From Rivularia sp. MS3 (GTDB lineage: Bacteria; Cyanobacteriota; Cyanobacteriia; Cyanobacteriales; Nostocaceae): a stretch of 64,000 nt of DNA. Shown one piece after another: positions 49,156-56,838 of this stretch (its first letter is position 1; each line of letters begins with the position of its first letter). Location: positions 1 to 64,000 of the forward strand of contig JAHCMI010000009.1 in the NCBI GenBank assembly GCA_019192545.1, in the 5' to 3' direction. Below the pieces are notes generated by a model. That model was not told where the DNA came from and made no database searches. It saw only the letters and a program-made list of their open reading frames with translations. The translations under genes were made by a program, and so were the position numbers.

Positions 49156-50544
49156 ATGCTACTAACCATTTCCACCACCCACCAACCTGCAACAGATTTA
49201 GGTTATCTTCTCCACAAACACCCAAATCGCTGTCAGTCGTTTTCGCTTCCTTTTGGAGAAGCACATGTTTTCTATCCAGAAGCGAGCAACGAACAATGTA
49301 CGGCAGCATTATTACTAGATATTAATCCAGTAAAACTAGTTAGAAAAAGAACTTTGACGCTGGATGCTTATGTAAACGATCGCCCTTATGTAGCTTCTTC
49401 GTTTTTCAGCGTTGCCATATCTCAAGTTTTTGGTACAGCTTTGGGTGGACGTTGTAAAGATAAACCGGAATTAGTAGAAACTGCGATACCGTTAATAGCA
49501 AAAATATCGGTTTTATCTAGTCGTAAGGGTGAAGATTTTTTACGAGAATTGTTTGAGCCTTTGGGTTATCAAGTTAGCTTACAAAATTATCCTTTGGATG
49601 AAACGTTCCCAGAGTGGGGAGAAAGTAAATACTTCACTGTAGAATTAGAAAACACTTTACCGCTTTCGCTTTTACTCAGCCATCTTTATGTTTTAATACC
49701 AGTTTTAGATAACAACAAACACTACTGGGTAAACGAAGAAGAAATAGACAAATTATTGCGTCACGGCGAAGGTTGGTTAAAGGAACATCCACTAAAAGAA
49801 GAAATTACCAAACGCTATTTAAAACGTCAGTATCGGTTGACTCGTGCGGCATTAGCTCAACTAACCGAACCCAACGAAACAGATCCAGATAGTGCCCAAG
49901 AAAATCACGATAAAGAAGAAGCAGCAGTTGAAAAGCCATTAAGTTTAAATCAACAGCGTTTGAATTGTGTTGTAGCAGCTTTAAAACAGCATAATGCTAG
50001 AAAAATAGTTGATTTAGGTTGCGGGCAAGGTAATTTACTAAAAATACTTTTAAAAGACAACTACTTTGAAAAAATTACCGGAGTAGACGTTTCTTATCGC
50101 TCTTTAGAAATTACTAAAGAAAGATTAGATAGATTGCATTTACCCCGCCATCAATGGGAAAAATTACAGTTAATTCAAGGTAGTTTAACTTATAAAGATA
50201 ACAGAATTTCAGGATATGATGCTGCTGCGGTAGTTGAAGTTATAGAACATCTAGATTTATATAGATTAAATGCGTTTGAAAGAGTTTTATTTGAGTTTGC
50301 AAGACCGCAGAAGGTGATAGTAACCACACCAAATATAGAATATAACGTTAATTTTGAAAACCTACCTGCCGGAAAATTACGTCATAAAGACCACCGCTTT
50401 GAATGGACGAGAGAAGAATTTCAAAACTGGGCTAAACAAGTGGGAGAAAACTTTAGTTATAGCGTGGAATTCCAAAATATAGGTGACGAAGATTTAGAAG
50501 TTGGCTCTCCAACACAAATGGCAGTTTTTTCAGTTAACAGTTAG
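49156..50544 (+). CDS. hen1: Bacterial Hen1: 3'-terminal RNA ribose 2'-O-methyltransferase
   Basis: Methylates the 2'-OH of the 3' end of cleaved RNA before ligation by Pnkp, so that the repaired site resists the same nuclease. 462 residues. The N-terminal ligase-activating domain (about 1-245) opens MLLTISTTHQPATDLGYLLHK and contains RKRTLTLDAYVNDRPYVASS. The C-terminal methyltransferase has VDLGCGQGNLLKILL (near residue 289), and metal ligands in VVEVIEHL (near 360) and RHKDHRFEWTREEF, the E-E-H-H set of Hen1. Followed by the Pnk-like kinase and thg1; pnkp lies 4 kb away on the same strand. Confidence 0.93.
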   Translation: MLLTISTTHQPATDLGYLLHKHPNRCQSFSLPFGEAHVFYPEASNEQCTAALLLDINPVKLVRKRTLTLDAYVNDRPYVASSFFSVAISQVFGTALGGRCKDKPELVETAIPLIAKISVLSSRKGEDFLRELFEPLGYQVSLQNYPLDETFPEWGESKYFTVELENTLPLSLLLSHLYVLIPVLDNNKHYWVNEEEIDKLLRHGEGWLKEHPLKEEITKRYLKRQYRLTRAALAQLTEPNETDPDSAQENHDKEEAAVEKPLSLNQQRLNCVVAALKQHNARKIVDLGCGQGNLLKILLKDNYFEKITGVDVSYRSLEITKERLDRLHLPRHQWEKLQLIQGSLTYKDNRISGYDAAAVVEVIEHLDLYRLNAFERVLFEFARPQKVIVTTPNIEYNVNFENLPAGKLRHKDHRFEWTREEFQNWAKQVGENFSYSVEFQNIGDEDLEVGSPTQMAVFSVNS

Positions 50545-50739
50545 TAGTTAGCAGCGAGCAGCGAACAGTCAAAAAGTTAACAGTTAATAATTATCAACAA
50601 AAAGTTCTATATGACGACTTGAGCCTTTTACATCTCGAAATAACAATTACTAAATAAACTTAACTCGATTCTATTCTCTATTCCCTGTTCCCTGTTCCCT
50701 CTAATTCTTGAGAGAGATAATTTGCTTACTAAAAACAAA

Positions 50740-51189
50740 ATGCAGGCAATTATATTTATTGGTATCCAAGGTGCGGGTAAATCAACTTTTTACCGCGAAT
50801 ATTTTCTTGATACGCACATCAGAATTAATCTTGATATGCTCAAAACTCGTCACCGAGAAAAGCTGATTTTTCAAGCTTGTTTATCAGCCAGACAAAGATT
50901 CGTGATAGATAACACTAATCCTACAGCAGAAGATAGAAAAAAATATATTATCCCAGCTAAAGAGCAAGGTTTTCAAGTATTAGGATACTACTTTGATTCA
51001 AAATTAGCAGATTGTAAACAACGCAACAGTCAACGCACTGGGAAAAAAGTAATTCCTTTAGTAGGAATATTATCAACTTATAAAAAGCTAACTTTACCAA
51101 GTTACACCGAAGGATTTGATGCAATATACTCGGTAAAAACCCGTTCAGATTATTCGTTCATTGTTGAGGAGTGGAATCGTGAAATTTGA
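50740..51189 (+). CDS. Stand-alone polynucleotide-kinase-like P-loop kinase
   Basis: 149 residues from the ATG at 50740; a TTG at 50722 is less likely. The P-loop FIGIQGAGKSTFYREYF is near the start. FVIDNTNPTAEDRKKYI matches the lid region of T4-type 5'-OH polynucleotide kinases and is nearly the same as IDATNVQREDRKYYV in the kinase domain of pnkp in this window. R-rich SARQRF and RNSQRTGKK can serve as lid/phosphate contacts. It therefore probably phosphorylates RNA 5'-OH ends or a related substrate. Its stop overlaps the proposed start of thg1 (GTGAAATTTGA), so the two are translationally coupled. Confidence 0.82.
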   Translation: MQAIIFIGIQGAGKSTFYREYFLDTHIRINLDMLKTRHREKLIFQACLSARQRFVIDNTNPTAEDRKKYIIPAKEQGFQVLGYYFDSKLADCKQRNSQRTGKKVIPLVGILSTYKKLTLPSYTEGFDAIYSVKTRSDYSFIVEEWNREI

Positions 51190-51936
51190 CGAACTTGATA
51201 CTAAAATGCGGGTATTTGAAACCGCTTGCGATTATTGCGTATACCGGGAATTTATATCGTAGCAAGATTGGATGGAAGAGGTTTTACTCGGTTAACAAAA
51301 GACGTGCATAAATTTAGCGCACCTTACGACGAAGGTTTTCGCGACTATATGTTAGATACCGTCGAGCATTTAATGAATAGCGGCTTCGATATTACTTACG
51401 GTTACACTCAAAGCGATGAAATTTCTCTGCTTTTTAACTTAGAAGATGAAACATTCAATCGTAAAACTCGCAAAATCAATTCAGTATTAGCAGGAGAAGC
51501 CAGCGCTAAATTTTCCTTACTTTTAGGAGATATGGCTTGTTTTGACTGTCGAATTTCTCAACTAGCTAATATTCAACAAGTAATAGATTATTTCCGCTGG
51601 AGACAGCAAGATGCTCATCGAAATTCTCTCAATTCTCACAGTTATTGGTGCTTGCGTGGAGACGGAGAAACAGCCCGGAAAGCTACCAGTATTATGGATG
51701 GTTTATCGGTAGCCGATAAAAACGAATTATTATTTCAGCACGGAATCAACTTTAACGAATTACCCAATTGGCAAAAACGGGGCATGGGGTTGTATTGGGA
51801 AGAATACGAAAAACAAGGATACAACCCCGTTAAAGATGAAACTGTATTTACAACAAGGAGACGGATAAAAAGAGAATTGGATTTACCGATGAAAGATGAT
51901 TACAGTCAGTTTATTGGGCAATTGCTTGAATGTTGA
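51179..51936 (+). pseudogene. thg1: Thg1-family tRNA(His) guanylyltransferase-like gene with a frameshift near the start
   Basis: Thg1-like proteins add nucleotides 3'-5' to repair or complete tRNA 5' ends. Catalytic parts are all present: VARLDGRGFTRLTK and YTQSDEISLLF supply the metal-binding Asp, Asp and Glu, and the C-terminal WQKRGMGLYWEEY is typical. The conserved head begins at the GTG at 51179 (VKFDELDTKMRVFETACDYC) but is in another frame. A one-base deletion at about 51239-51241 separates it from PGIYIVARLDG, which runs from 51226 to 51936. Slipping back one base there would give ...CVIPGIYIVARL, as in homologues. It may be truly broken, translated from the internal TTG at 51226, or a sequencing error. 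Confidence 0.85.
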
Positions 51937-52086
51937 AGTTATCGCAATTTTATTAAAATTAATATTAATATTGCAATCCTATATGACTCGTGAGAAAGAT
52001 AAGTGTCTCTATTCCCGGTTTTTGGGAAAAACTGGGTTTCTCAAATCTCCCAAATGATTTAGAAATGTTATCCATCAAGAATATAT

Positions 52087-52116
52087 AAAAAACCCGGCTT
52101 TTCAAACACCGGGCTT
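52087..52116 (-). terminator. Terminator-like hairpin past the TPR gene
   Basis: CCCGG (52093-52097) and CCGGG (52109-52113) form a stem; on the minus strand it is followed by TTTTTT (52087-52092), just past the stop of the TPR gene. A related hairpin, CCCGGTTTTTGGGAAAAACT, lies at about 52015-52034. Confidence 0.6.
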
Positions 52117-52124
52117 AACTGTTG

Positions 52125-53555
52125 CTAGAAGCTGTTTAAAAATAAAGCTTGGAACCTCATATCGTGGCGAATTTTTCTAAAATCTGAACTAAGTTTGACT
52201 TTTTGATGAAATTCTTCAGGATTAATATTGATAGCTTTTTTGAGATTCTCGATTGCTAATTCTATATGATTTAAAGCTACGTAACAGCAAGCTTTGTCAT
52301 ATAAAATATTTGGTTGATCTGGACGCAAGTCTAAAGCTTTGTCAAAAAACAAAATTGCTTCTTCATTTCTTTCCAATTTCTGAAGTACCGAACCGTAAAT
52401 TTTCCATGCTAAATCATAAGTAGGATTGATTTCTATTGCTTTATTTAAAGTTGTAATCGCATCTTCATTTCTTCCTAATTTGTGAAGCGTATAACCTCTA
52501 AAGCAATGTGCCGCGTAGTTTTGCGAGTCAATTTCTATTACTTTATCAAAAGCGACAATTGCATCTCCATATCTTTCTGATTTTCCTAATGTTGTTCCTA
52601 GACGATTGCGAACTTGACAATTTCGTGGTTCTAATTTTAAAACTTTATTAAAAGTATCAATTGTATCTTCTAACTTTCCTAAACTATATAGTATTTCAGC
52701 CTTCCTACATAAAGCCTCTGGAAAATTTGGCTGAATTTCGATTGCCTTTTCAAAACTAGTTAAAGCTGACTCAAAATTTCCTAAATCTAAAAAAACAAGA
52801 CCTTTTTGATACCAAGCCAAGTATAGATTTGGATTATATTTTACTGCATTTTCAAAGCAAACAATGGCATCTTCTAATTTTTCAGTTTTCCATAGAGTAC
52901 AGCCTTTTTCATACCAAGCATTTGCATAATTTGGCTGAACTTCGATAGCTTTATCAAAACAAAGCAAAGCAGCTTCTAATTGTTCTAAATCAAATAAGGT
53001 AATACCTTTATGGTACCAAGCTAAATCAAATTTTGGTTTATACTGAATTGCTTTATCAAAGCACATAAGAGCATCTTCTAATTGACCTAACTCATGCAGA
53101 GTTAAGCCTTTCTCATACCAAGCTTTAGGATAATTAGGCTTAATTAAAATAATTTTTTCAAAATTAATTAATGCTGGTTCTAATTTTTTTTGCTCTAATA
53201 GCACAATACCTTGTAATAACAAAGCTTTGAGGTAATCTGGCTGAATTTCTATAGCTATATCGAGAGATGAGAGGGCTTCTGGCAATTTTCCCAGTTGAAA
53301 TAAAGTTACCCCTCGTTCATACCAAACATATTGAGACTCGGATGAATGTGCTATTGCCCTTTCAAAATCAATTAGAGCTTCATCAAAATGTTCTAAACCT
53401 TGTAGTGCCATTCCCCGAAAGACTAAAGCATCATAAAGATTTGGTTTAGACTCTAAAATTTCATTATAAATTAATAATGCTTCTTCAAAGCGTTTTAATT
53501 CTATAAGAGTCACCCCTAAATGGTGCAAGCCTTGCCAATTTTCAAATGAATTCAT
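52125..53555 (-). CDS. TPR-repeat protein
   Basis: 476 residues, almost wholly made of about 13 tetratricopeptide repeats of 34 residues with the pattern W-x2-(K/R)-G-x2-L-x8-A-x3-F-D-K-A-I-x-(I/V)-x-P, for example AWYEKGLTLHELGQLEDALM. They form a right-handed superhelix for protein-protein binding. No signal peptide or catalytic domain. It lies antisense between thg1 and the interrupted gene upstream of pnkp, interrupting the RNA-repair neighbourhood. A functional link to RNA repair is not shown by sequence. A terminator is on its 3' side. Confidence 0.86.
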   Translation of the reverse strand: MNSFENWQGLHHLGVTLIELKRFEEALLIYNEILESKPNLYDALVFRGMALQGLEHFDEALIDFERAIAHSSESQYVWYERGVTLFQLGKLPEALSSLDIAIEIQPDYLKALLLQGIVLLEQKKLEPALINFEKIILIKPNYPKAWYEKGLTLHELGQLEDALMCFDKAIQYKPKFDLAWYHKGITLFDLEQLEAALLCFDKAIEVQPNYANAWYEKGCTLWKTEKLEDAIVCFENAVKYNPNLYLAWYQKGLVFLDLGNFESALTSFEKAIEIQPNFPEALCRKAEILYSLGKLEDTIDTFNKVLKLEPRNCQVRNRLGTTLGKSERYGDAIVAFDKVIEIDSQNYAAHCFRGYTLHKLGRNEDAITTLNKAIEINPTYDLAWKIYGSVLQKLERNEEAILFFDKALDLRPDQPNILYDKACCYVALNHIELAIENLKKAININPEEFHQKVKLSSDFRKIRHDMRFQALFLNSF

Positions 53556-53702
53556 TTTTAATTTGAAAATGTATGATGTAAAAAATTTAGCTTTAAGCGT
53601 TTTTTTATTAACTCATTTATAACAGATATTAACTTCATTATCTATAATGCAAACGTCGCTTAATCAAATCAATATATAAACTAATACTTAAGAGATAAAA
53701 CA

Positions 53703-54166
53703 ATGAAGAATTTAGAAAGAAAATATGAAATATGGCTCGAAGTAGAACAATACTCTAAGAGGATGTAATGATGCGCTATAAATGATACTTGAAACTTTTG
53801 AGATCCCCCTAAATCCCCCGCTAAATTGGGGGACTTTTACTCCCCTTTTTAAGGGGGGACTCGGGGCCCCCTCTGGGGATAGGGGGGAAGGGGGGATCAT
53901 CCGAGAATTATGATAAAAACTATACTTTTCAAACATCCTCTAATGCAATAATAATTTTCTCCGACGGTTTACAAATCGGGATTAATATTTACAGCGAAAA
54001 ATATTTTGAAAACAATCTTAATCAACTTAATTGGATAGATGAAGAATTCGCTATCTTGCCAGATGTTATTGTAAAGAATTATCAAGCAGATTCAATAAGG
54101 AAAGCTATCATAAATTTAATTGAAAAACAAAAATTTTTTGAAGGCAGAGGTTTTCCTTGTATTTAA
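53703..54166 (+). pseudogene. 92-codon hypothetical gene split by a 182-bp MITE-like insertion
   Basis: The ATG at 53703 gives MKNLERKYEIWLEVEQYS before the frame runs into the element. Downstream of the element, NAIIIFSDGLQIGINIYSEK through EGRGFPCI runs to a stop at 54164-54166. Deleting 53759-53943 joins the two parts in frame with TCT-AAT-GCA, giving a continuous 92-residue protein. TAA flanks the element on both sides (53756-53758 and 53941-53943). The protein family is not recognised. It is 77 bp upstream of pnkp on the same strand and may have been part of the repair operon. Confidence 0.8.
53759..53940. mobile_element. Non-autonomous element (MITE) with GAGGATGT ends
   Basis: Terminal inverted repeat GAGGATGT (53759-53766) / ACATCCTC (53933-53940), flanked by TAA on each side, the likely target duplication. 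Length 182 bp, no ORF. The interior is a GATCCCCCT...GGGGGGATC hairpin and C/G-rich tracts (CCCCCTAAATCCCCCGC, GGGGGGACTCGGGGCCCC). The internal GATCCCCC hairpin is like repeats near 21600-21660 and 41870-41914. Confidence 0.8.
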
Positions 54167-54243
54167 TCCTCTAAAACCTTTTACCTGAGCGTCTTGCGCG
54201 TAAGTCCTGGGTTTATTTATTCAAAATATTCTAAAACTAAACT

Positions 54244-56838
54244 ATGAAAATAACTATCCCCGAATTATCATTAGTGACGCTCATCGGTGCATCAGGCTCC
54301 GGTAAATCAAGCTTTGCCAAAAAACATTTTCAACCCTTTGAAGTTATATCATCCGATTTTTGTCGGGGATTGGTTTCCAATGACGAAAACAGCCAAGCAG
54401 CTTCCAAAGATGCTTTCGACGTACTTCATTACATTGCTCGCAAACGTTTAGCAGCAGCAAAACTTACGGTAATTGACGCAACCAACGTTCAAAGAGAAGA
54501 CCGCAAATATTATGTAAACTTAGCAAGAGAATATCACTGCTTACCTGTTGCTATAGTTTTAAATTTACCCGAACATATCTGTCATCAACGCAACCAACAA
54601 CGTCCAGATAGACAATTTGGTTCTTATGTAGTGCAGCGTCACGTGCAAAATCTAAGACGTTCTTTGAGAGGTTTACAAAAAGAAGGTTTTCGCTATGTTT
54701 ACGTACTTAATTCTATCGAAGAAATTGAAGCCGTAGAAATCCAACGTCAACGATTATGGAACAACCGCAAACACGAACATGGTCCCTTTGATATCATCGG
54801 TGACATTCACGGTTGCTGCGATGAATTAGAAATATTATTACAAAAACTAGGATATCAGAAGTCAGTTAACAATAATAATTCTACCCCTTCTACCCCATCT
54901 TCCCCCTCCCATCTTTACTCCCACCCAGAAGGACGCAAAGCCTTATTTCTCGGTGATTTAGTAGACAGAGGTCCCCGGATTCTCGATACTGTCAAACTCG
55001 TAAAAAGCATGGTGGAAGCGGATGCTGCAATTTGCGTTCCTGGTAATCACGAACATAAGCTGTTACGTAAGATACGCGGTAAAAAAGTTAAGATTAATCA
55101 CGGTTTAGAGCAAACTGTAGCCGAAATTGAAGCTTTATCTCCAGAAGTACGCGAACCTTTTCTTAAAGAAGTTGAAAAATTCATTGATTCCTTAGTAAGT
55201 CATTTCGTTTTAGATGATGGAAAGTTGGTAGTTGCTCATGCAGGAATGCGTGAAGAAATGCAGGGAAGGGGTTCGGGCAAGGTGCGGAGTTTTGCGCTGT
55301 ATGGTGAAACTACCGGCGAAATCGATGAATTCGGTTTACCCGTGCGCTACGATTGGGCTTCCGAATATCGCGGTGAAGCGATGGTGGTTTACGGACATAC
55401 TCCCGTACCGGAAGCGGAATGGTTGAATAATACAATTGATATTGATACCGGTTGCGTTTTTGGTGGAAAGCTAACGGCTTTGCGCTATCCGGAAAGGGAA
55501 TTAGTAAGTGTTGAAGCTGCGAAGGTTTATTGCGAACCCGTGAAACCTTTGGGATATGTAACAGGTACGGGAATAAGTTCTCAGCAGCAGCTAGATGATG
55601 TTTTGAATATTGATGATGTCTTGGGTAAGCGGATTATTAATGTTCGTTTGCAAAATAAAATTACCATCCGCGAAGAAAACTCCATTGCGGCTTTGGAAGT
55701 GATGAGTCGGTTTGCTGCTAACCCTAAATGGTTGATTTATCTTCCTCCTACGATGTCACCTGTGGAAACTTCTCAGTTACCCGGATATTTAGAGCATCCC
55801 AAACAAGCTTTTGCTTATTATAAAAATCAAGGAGTTACCGAAGTTATTTGCGAAGAAAAACACATGGGTTCGCGAGCGGTGGTTATTGTATGTCGCGATG
55901 AGGAAGCTGTTAAAAGAAAATTCGGAATTGTTAATGAAGGAATCGGTATTTGTTACACTCGCACCGGAAGACGGTTTTTTAATAATTCGGAATTAGAAAC
56001 GGAGTTTTTAGCAGGAGTAAATAATGCTCTTTCTAAAAGTAATTTTTGGTCAAGATTAAACACCGATTGGGTATGTCTCGATTGCGAACTTATGCCTTGG
56101 TCGGCAAAAGCTCAAGGATTAATCCGCAGCCAATATGCAGCAGTCGGTGCAGCTTCTCGCCCCGCTTTAAGTAATGCCATAAATGTACTTACAGAAGCTA
56201 TTCAAAATGGTGTTGAAGTTAACTCATTACTGAGTAAATTTCAAGAACGTCAGCAAATGGCAAGTCAATATGTAGACGCTTATCGTCGCTACTGTTGGGA
56301 AGTTAACGATATTTCCGATATCAAACTTGCACCATTCCATATTTTAGCTACAGAAGGCGCGGTACATACGGATAAAAACCATCGCTGGCATATGGAACAA
56401 GCTGCCATTATAGAAACAGCCAATCCCGAATTATTAATGACAACTAATTACAAAATTATAGATTTAAACGACCCTAGCAGCGAAGCAGAAGCAACCCACT
56501 GGTGGGAAGAAATGACTTGTAAAGGTGGTGAGGGGATGGTTGTGAAACCCTTGGAATTTATTGTTCGTGGTAAACGCGGAATTTTGCAACCAGCTGTAAA
56601 ATGTCGCGGTAGGGAATATCTGCGGATAATTTACGGCGCGGAATATACTACTGAAGAGAACTTAGAAAGATTAAGAAAGCGCGGGTTATCTTTGAAACGT
56701 TCCTTAGCGATGCGGGAATTTGCTTTGGGTGTGGAAGCATTAGAGAGATTTGTCAAAGATTCTCCATTGCGACGGGTTCATGAATGCGTTTTTGGGGTTT
56801 TGGCATTGGAAAGTGAAGCGGTAGATCCAAGGTTGTAA
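54244..56838 (+). CDS. pnkp: Bacterial Pnkp: polynucleotide kinase-phosphatase-ligase
   Basis: 864-residue RNA-repair enzyme that heals and seals cleaved RNA. Domain 1 (about 1-170), the 5' kinase, has P-loop LIGASGSGKSSF and IDATNVQREDRKYY. Domain 2 (about 180-440), the 2',3'-cyclic phosphatase of the calcineurin type, shows DIIGDIHGCCDELE, FLGDLVDRGP, PGNHEHKL and VVYGHTPVP. Domain 3 (about 450-864), the adenylyltransferase/ligase, has Lys in CEEKHMGSRAVVI (near residue 539), DCELMPW and GEGMVVKP. This is the partner of Hen1. It starts at the ATG at 54244 and is preceded by the disrupted 92-codon gene. Confidence 0.94.
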   Translation: MKITIPELSLVTLIGASGSGKSSFAKKHFQPFEVISSDFCRGLVSNDENSQAASKDAFDVLHYIARKRLAAAKLTVIDATNVQREDRKYYVNLAREYHCLPVAIVLNLPEHICHQRNQQRPDRQFGSYVVQRHVQNLRRSLRGLQKEGFRYVYVLNSIEEIEAVEIQRQRLWNNRKHEHGPFDIIGDIHGCCDELEILLQKLGYQKSVNNNNSTPSTPSSPSHLYSHPEGRKALFLGDLVDRGPRILDTVKLVKSMVEADAAICVPGNHEHKLLRKIRGKKVKINHGLEQTVAEIEALSPEVREPFLKEVEKFIDSLVSHFVLDDGKLVVAHAGMREEMQGRGSGKVRSFALYGETTGEIDEFGLPVRYDWASEYRGEAMVVYGHTPVPEAEWLNNTIDIDTGCVFGGKLTALRYPERELVSVEAAKVYCEPVKPLGYVTGTGISSQQQLDDVLNIDDVLGKRIINVRLQNKITIREENSIAALEVMSRFAANPKWLIYLPPTMSPVETSQLPGYLEHPKQAFAYYKNQGVTEVICEEKHMGSRAVVIVCRDEEAVKRKFGIVNEGIGICYTRTGRRFFNNSELETEFLAGVNNALSKSNFWSRLNTDWVCLDCELMPWSAKAQGLIRSQYAAVGAASRPALSNAINVLTEAIQNGVEVNSLLSKFQERQQMASQYVDAYRRYCWEVNDISDIKLAPFHILATEGAVHTDKNHRWHMEQAAIIETANPELLMTTNYKIIDLNDPSSEAEATHWWEEMTCKGGEGMVVKPLEFIVRGKRGILQPAVKCRGREYLRIIYGAEYTTEENLERLRKRGLSLKRSLAMREFALGVEALERFVKDSPLRRVHECVFGVLALESEAVDPRL

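Follow-up and report, generated by a model that had tools for sequence, protein, structure and literature searches.

The cyanobacterium Rivularia sp. MS3 carries, at positions 49156-56838 of the window (the whole stretch of DNA analysed here, 64,000 nt long and corresponding to positions 1-64,000 of contig JAHCMI010000009.1), the RNA-repair genes hen1 and pnkp and, nested between them, a gene for a stand-alone kinase of the polynucleotide kinase (PNK) type, followed by thg1, which encodes a Thg1-like 3'-5' polymerase. This four-gene arrangement is more than chance, and the linkage is real and conserved. We think it rather probable that the genes form an RNA-repair locus of two modules, an outer one made of Hen1 and Pnkp and an inner, translationally coupled kinase-Thg1 pair that would serve shortened RNA ends carrying a 5'-OH. 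In the genome of the window itself thg1 has a frameshift that is either recent or an assembly error, so that the inner module has probably lost all or part of its function there.

Identity of the four genes

All four genes lie on the + strand (Table 1). An earlier note, made from the letters of the window, had claimed that hen1 and pnkp are both complete and that a kinase and a Thg1-like gene stand between them on the same strand, and profile searches bear this out. Hen1 is a full member of the curated bacterial family TIGR04074, with a whole-protein match over cut-off, and Pnkp, likewise a full member of its curated family, contains the AAA_33, Metallophos and PNKP_ligase domains.

The kinase open reading frame (ORF) is listed from TTG 50722, and the ATG at 50740 agrees with the start used in relatives, for example at loci L017 and L018 (throughout, G, C and L numbers denote genomes, contigs and loci). 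The best NCBIfam match of the protein was the PNK-3'Pase model TIGR01663, at 52.3 bits and thus far under the whole-protein cut-off of 502.8, and it reached 33.9 bits of the 750 cut-off of the full Pnkp model, indicating that only a single domain is present. When compared with solved structures, it matched PNKP kinase domains best (E 5.6e-19), followed by structures titled 'Metallophosphoesterase', which we take to be the Clostridium Pnkp kinase domain, and, more weakly, by T4 PNK and Pnkp1. The P-loop, catalytic Asp and DNTNP/Arg segments are present as in PNKP kinase domains, placing the protein in the PNK family. G13, K14, D32, D57, T59, N60, R66, R95 and R99 are invariant, and the DNTNP...R segment does resemble its Pnkp counterpart, a likeness that the note had pointed out.

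The solved structure nearest to Thg1, by profile match, is the Thg1-like protein 5axk, presumably from Methanosarcina. The metal-binding carboxylates D16 and D64/E65 are kept in the thg1 body of the window. The roles given here to D16, D64 and E65 follow in part PMC6471195.

Conservation of the linkage

We surveyed the genes at three levels: the class (388 genomes), the family (217 genomes) and all bacteria, the last as the best 80 of at least 537 confirmed Thg1 relatives, a set in which close relatives are over-represented, with flanks of up to 8 kb. The surveys partly overlap in genomes (L045 = G107, L037 = G553), ORF calls in the relatives' loci are crude, and the Fisher p values for co-occurrence are not corrected for ancestry.

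Among the best 80 loci, the kinase gene lies directly upstream of thg1 in 63, with an overlap of 11 nt in 55 of them, of 4 nt in 5 and of 14 nt in 3. In the window, too, GTG 51179 of thg1 overlaps the kinase stop by 11 nt. The homologous codon is an in-frame start in all 80 relatives' loci, as it is in G555, a member of the window's genus, which makes the start-stop overlap the ancestral arrangement.

At class level thg1 was found in 16 genomes (15 over cut-off), pnkp in 15 and hen1 in 15 over cut-off. Five genomes hold thg1 and pnkp together (p 1.4e-4): in three, all of the window's family, the genes are linked, and in two (G381 and G211) they are unlinked. The kinase gene is directly upstream in 12 of the 14 class-level thg1 loci other than the window, the fragment match in G010 being left out.

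Within the family, 48 genomes carry thg1 and 80 carry pnkp, the latter gene being present in 34/48 genomes with thg1 versus 46/169 without it (p 6.5e-8). Of the 48 thg1 genes, 34 are immediately preceded by the kinase gene, hen1 lies within 5 kb upstream in 19, and all four genes occur together, with hen1 and pnkp as the flanking pair, in 15. The note had named such a survey as the test that could refute the linkage of kinase and thg1 with hen1 and pnkp, and the linkage survived it. Five of these 15 clusters are damaged. The lesion affects thg1 in the window and in G416, whose pnkp is damaged as well, hen1 in G570, and pnkp in G404 and G572. The pnkp of G572 (contig G572:C1, locus L202) is cut in two, with model positions 1-569 at the cluster and 570-851 some 6.1 Mb further along that contig. 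In G560, G561 and G459, thg1 follows hen1 without a kinase gene. In 17 family genomes pnkp follows thg1 within 5 kb; the match ends are only 47-224 nt apart in 13 of them, and the larger spacings belong to the window, G553, G555 and G561. A long open frame suggested a thg1-pnkp fusion in G566; the genes turned out to be separate.

Full-length hen1 is present in the flanks of 13 of the best 80 loci and pnkp in those of 11. By lineage, hen1 is in the flanks of 11/33 cyanobacterial loci versus 2/47 others. The latter two are metagenome-assembled genomes, one of a planctomycete (L086, Planctomycetota), with the order hen1, a DUF5677 gene, two RlaP nucleotidyltransferase genes, kinase, thg1, pnkp, and one of Bacteroidota (L108), with the order kinase, thg1, two other ORFs, hen1, pnkp. 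The link to hen1 requires 10 changes when placed on a quick tree of 81 Thg1 rows, compared with a mean of 13.1 for shuffled labels, and at least 6 of the 10 are forced by the starred branches. L086 and L108 lie elsewhere on this tree than the cyanobacterial cases, for which one old linkage with repeated losses would fit, on a tree that cannot separate gain from loss.

Within the window's genus the block appears to be present or absent as a whole. In G554, G556, G557 and G558 idi is retained, the approximately 10 kb read on the relevant side showed none of the four genes (hen1, kinase, thg1, pnkp), and the family survey gave no thg1 or pnkp match. G559 (84% complete) has pnkp only. Thg1 relatives also occur in 120 phage and 17 plasmid records, all at less than 60% identity.

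Two modules or independent neighbours

Several observations weigh against the two-module reading or favour independent pairs. thg1 lacks a kinase gene directly upstream in 17 of the best 80 loci, and hen1 is not in the fetched flanks of 67. In the family, 14 of the 48 genomes with thg1 have no pnkp, which speaks against one obligatory pathway, and in G437, G438, G440, G442 and G443 the kinase-thg1 pair sits approximately 10-35 kb upstream of hen1-pnkp. G418 and G419 have the kinase gene between hen1 and pnkp and thg1 on another contig, showing that kinase and thg1 are not inseparable. In the window itself, pnkp lies about 2.3 kb downstream of thg1 with an antisense gene in between. Furthermore, thg1 is broken in 5 of the 48 family genomes, the window included, and G381 (L019) and G472 (L204) carry Thg1 frames of approximately 276 aa without the first metal-binding Asp motif; no matching kinase was found in the genomes of these two, and their Thg1 is possibly a pseudoenzyme.

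The lack of hen1 in 67 of the 80 flanks, together with the 14 family genomes without pnkp, indicates that kinase-thg1 is a self-standing module. It is quite possible, if somewhat short of probable, that the two pairs are independent modules that share an island, each dealing with its own damage and with no hand-over of substrate. Either pair occurs alone, as in the 14 thg1 genomes just mentioned and the 46 genomes with pnkp and no thg1, and the five genomes with the pair at a distance agree with mere co-location. Against it, the pair is inserted on the same strand between hen1 and pnkp, with the short distances to pnkp given above for 13 of 17 genomes, and a similar order recurs in the planctomycete. 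In the two-module locus that we favour, the five genomes with the pair at a distance and the 67 flanks without hen1 imply that the modules need not exchange substrates.

The broken thg1 of the window

The window holds no single complete reading frame for a Thg1-like protein. The frame opened by GTG 51179 runs through about 21 conserved codons and soon afterwards meets a stop, and the catalytic body is in a different frame, where the first listed start is TTG 51226. Relatives carry the N-terminal piece and the body in one frame, and a DNA alignment with seven of them places the loss of a single nucleotide near 51,241. Thus the Thg1-like gene of the earlier note is there as far as its body is concerned (see the PF04446 match in Table 1), as a frameshifted gene and not as one open frame; similarly, the overlap of the kinase stop with the thg1 start is real, and the frame that starts there holds the short conserved piece and not the body. 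Programmed frameshifting was considered and rejected, as no slippery heptamer was seen at the junction by reading and all 80 relatives' loci have a single frame.

The body is still well conserved, which dates the loss of frame as recent or makes it an assembly error. Compared with L037, the ratio of replacement to silent substitution rates (dN/dS) is 0.064 for the thg1 body, 0.098 for hen1, 0.153 for the kinase gene and 0.071 for pnkp. A sequencing or assembly error, with a functional four-gene cluster in the organism, is an explanation to which we would give nearly even weight. In its favour are the low ratio for the thg1 body, the intact hen1, kinase and pnkp genes, and the excess of replacements on the window branch (12 replacement and 25 silent changes versus 4 and 23 on the G555 branch), which is not significant (p 0.15). 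What speaks for a genuine lesion is that the site is no long single-base run and that thg1 breaks recur, with four more broken copies among the 48 of the family: G501 (L205) and G513 (L206) are shifted, the end of the gene is replaced in G533 (L207), and G416 (L199) retains a remnant. Beside each of these four the kinase gene looks intact. Decay of thg1 seems to set in earlier than that of its partner kinase.

Predicted function

Of the outer pair, Pnkp is the enzyme that heals cut RNA and joins it again; Hen1 adds a 2'-O-methyl group to the 3' end at the break. In the two-module reading, the stand-alone kinase would phosphorylate the 5'-OH of damaged RNA, probably tRNA, and Thg1 would activate that 5'-phosphate and put back the lost nucleotides by 3'-5' synthesis, with the opposite strand as template. 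This would rebuild a 5' end beyond the reach of ligation alone. With the pair placed inside hen1-pnkp, presumably on a shared transcript, both kinds of repair would be expressed together. The RlaP or RNA ligase genes found beside thg1 in other loci support this reading. This agrees with 5'-truncated tRNAs being the preferred in vitro substrate of bacterial Thg1-like proteins (available parts of PMC6471195 and PMC3701042) and with the use of a 5'-phosphate by the characterised Thg1 enzymes. That a neighbouring PNK supplies this phosphate was proposed in 2010 by Anantharaman, Iyer and Aravind (both points from the portion of PMC2904730 at hand).

Could the kinase have a target other than damaged RNA ends, such as DNA ends or a small molecule? 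Mammalian PNKP also acts on DNA. AAA_33 kinases are diverse, and mammalian PNKP domains are the solved structures most closely related to this one, which would allow another target; we regard it as improbable, as the kinase is constantly paired with Thg1, whose known substrates bear a 5'-phosphate (PMC2904730, seen in part), and T4 PNK and Pnkp1 are among the further profile matches.

As to Thg1, both tRNA-His genes found in the genome of the window encode G-1 opposite C73, as read from their sequence. The identity of tRNA-His therefore does not depend on Thg1, and repair of 5' ends is a more likely role than maturation of tRNA-His. The addition of G-1 as in eukaryotes gave the Thg1 family its name; here it is very improbable, given the encoded G-1 and C73 and the lack of Thg1 in 372 of the 388 genomes of the class. 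The second tRNA-His gene lies in a tightly packed array, about 2.1 kb long, of 21 predicted tRNA genes (L155, G000:C160:28200-30400).

The earlier note went further and suggested that the set rebuilds the 5' and 3' ends of tRNA in one pathway. Its linkage withstood the survey and a repair role fits the tRNA-His genes; a single obligatory pathway does not fit the loci without hen1 or pnkp. One joint route for the four enzymes would be gap filling after a nuclease has taken out nucleotides instead of breaking a single bond, with kinase and Thg1 regrowing the 5' side of a break in the 3'-5' direction, Pnkp sealing it and Hen1 marking it. Hen1-Pnkp alone only reseals, and gap filling, if true, would amount to cut-fill-seal repair of RNA. 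We hold it to be unlikely. Gapped tRNA lesions do exist, as RloC removes one nucleotide from tRNA (PMC2610378, part of the article), but such a gap in the anticodon loop has no template for a templated Thg1, and damage of the RloC type is a less likely target for this reason.

The conserved position within a biochemically characterised RNA-repair operon provides a testable setting for what bacterial Thg1-like proteins do in vivo and raises the question of what kind of RNA damage calls for the combined action of kinase, 3'-5' polymerase, ligase and methyltransferase. Relatives with intact copies are suited to such tests; the window's own thg1 is not.

Other features of the locus

As the earlier note described, an antisense tetratricopeptide-repeat (TPR) gene and a split gene interrupt the cluster between thg1 and pnkp (Table 1). 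The TPR gene is found at the same place in the same-genus relatives G553 (L037, Calothrix parasitica) and G555. With wide thg1-pnkp spacing limited to a few genomes, the TPR insertion is a trait of the close relatives of the window. The small gene is uninterrupted in L037.

Table 1. Coordinates of the features of the hen1-pnkp locus in the window
Feature	Position	Strand	Support
hen1, 3'-terminal RNA ribose 2'-O-methyltransferase, complete	49156..50544	+	TIGR04074 717.6 bits (cut-off 340); Hen1_L PF12623 381 bits
Stand-alone PNK-type P-loop kinase, 149 aa	50740..51189	+	AAA_33 52.5 bits (cut-off 27)
thg1 N-terminal piece, ~21 codons from GTG	51179..51241	+	Frame differs from body; overlaps kinase stop
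thg1 body (Thg1 and Thg1C domains)	51226..51936	+	PF04446 100.3 bits (cut-off 29.2); PF14413 61.8 bits
TPR-repeat gene, antisense, between thg1 and pnkp	52125..53555	-	TPR profile matches; homologue at same place in L037 and G555
Small gene, no Pfam match, split by repeat element	~53703..54166	+	Intact homologue at L037:12581-12859
184-bp repeat element, 9-bp inverted ends	53758..53941	.	60 full or partial matches in own genome
pnkp, kinase-phosphatase-ligase, complete	54244..56838	+	TIGR04075 1466.6 bits (cut-off 750); PNKP_ligase 628 bits

A promoter scan gave results at chance level (19 found, 18.0 expected). Terminator-like sites numbered 7 where 3.5 were expected, and 3 of the 5 on the + strand lie inside the 184-bp repeat element. 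None of the PADLOC models matched the kinase, thg1 or pnkp; there was one weak match, to the methyltransferase region of hen1, and TPR models matched the TPR gene.

Elsewhere, the Prochloraceae locus L059 has two RlaP genes, an unknown gene, the kinase-thg1 pair and a gene for an RNA ligase, so that a different ligase adjoins the same pair. In the Calothrix-type genomes of L038, L039, L041 and L042, a protein of approximately 300 aa (6584-7489 in L042) is encoded directly upstream of kinase-thg1; the L042 copy, the only one scanned, has no Pfam family.

Comparison with known systems

Burroughs and Aravind reportedly described in 2016 modular RNA-repair systems with RlaP, in which ligases, kinases and nucleotidyltransferases are shuffled. 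The present loci resemble them where RlaP genes lie near kinase-thg1 (L059 and L086) or near thg1 (L071 and L074).

Like the Thg1-like proteins of bacteria and archaea that repair tRNA 5' ends, the window's Thg1 has 5axk as its nearest structure, keeps the carboxylates and is not needed for G-1 addition; it differs from them in its broken reading frame and in having an operon partner kinase.

The kinase-Thg1 pair and its 5'-phosphate logic are already known, having been published in 2010 (PMC2904730, of which a part was available). A PNK-family kinase beside bacterial thg1 was described there, as found here in 63/80 loci and 34/48 family genomes, and RNA ligase and MACRO genes were noted in some of the bacterial thg1 neighbourhoods. 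hen1 and pnkp are not named in the portion seen, whereas here the pair is nested within hen1-pnkp and thg1 is frameshifted. Neither this nesting nor an association of Thg1 with Hen1 was found in the literature searched, the coverage of which is incomplete, making this weak evidence of novelty.

Finally, pnkp and hen1 are stated always to share an operon in the part of PMC4411300 available. The Hen1 and Pnkp of the window belong to the same curated protein families as those of the Pnkp-Hen1 operon; unlike there, their genes are not adjacent and stand 3.7 kb apart, with the kinase gene, thg1, the antisense TPR gene and the split gene between them.

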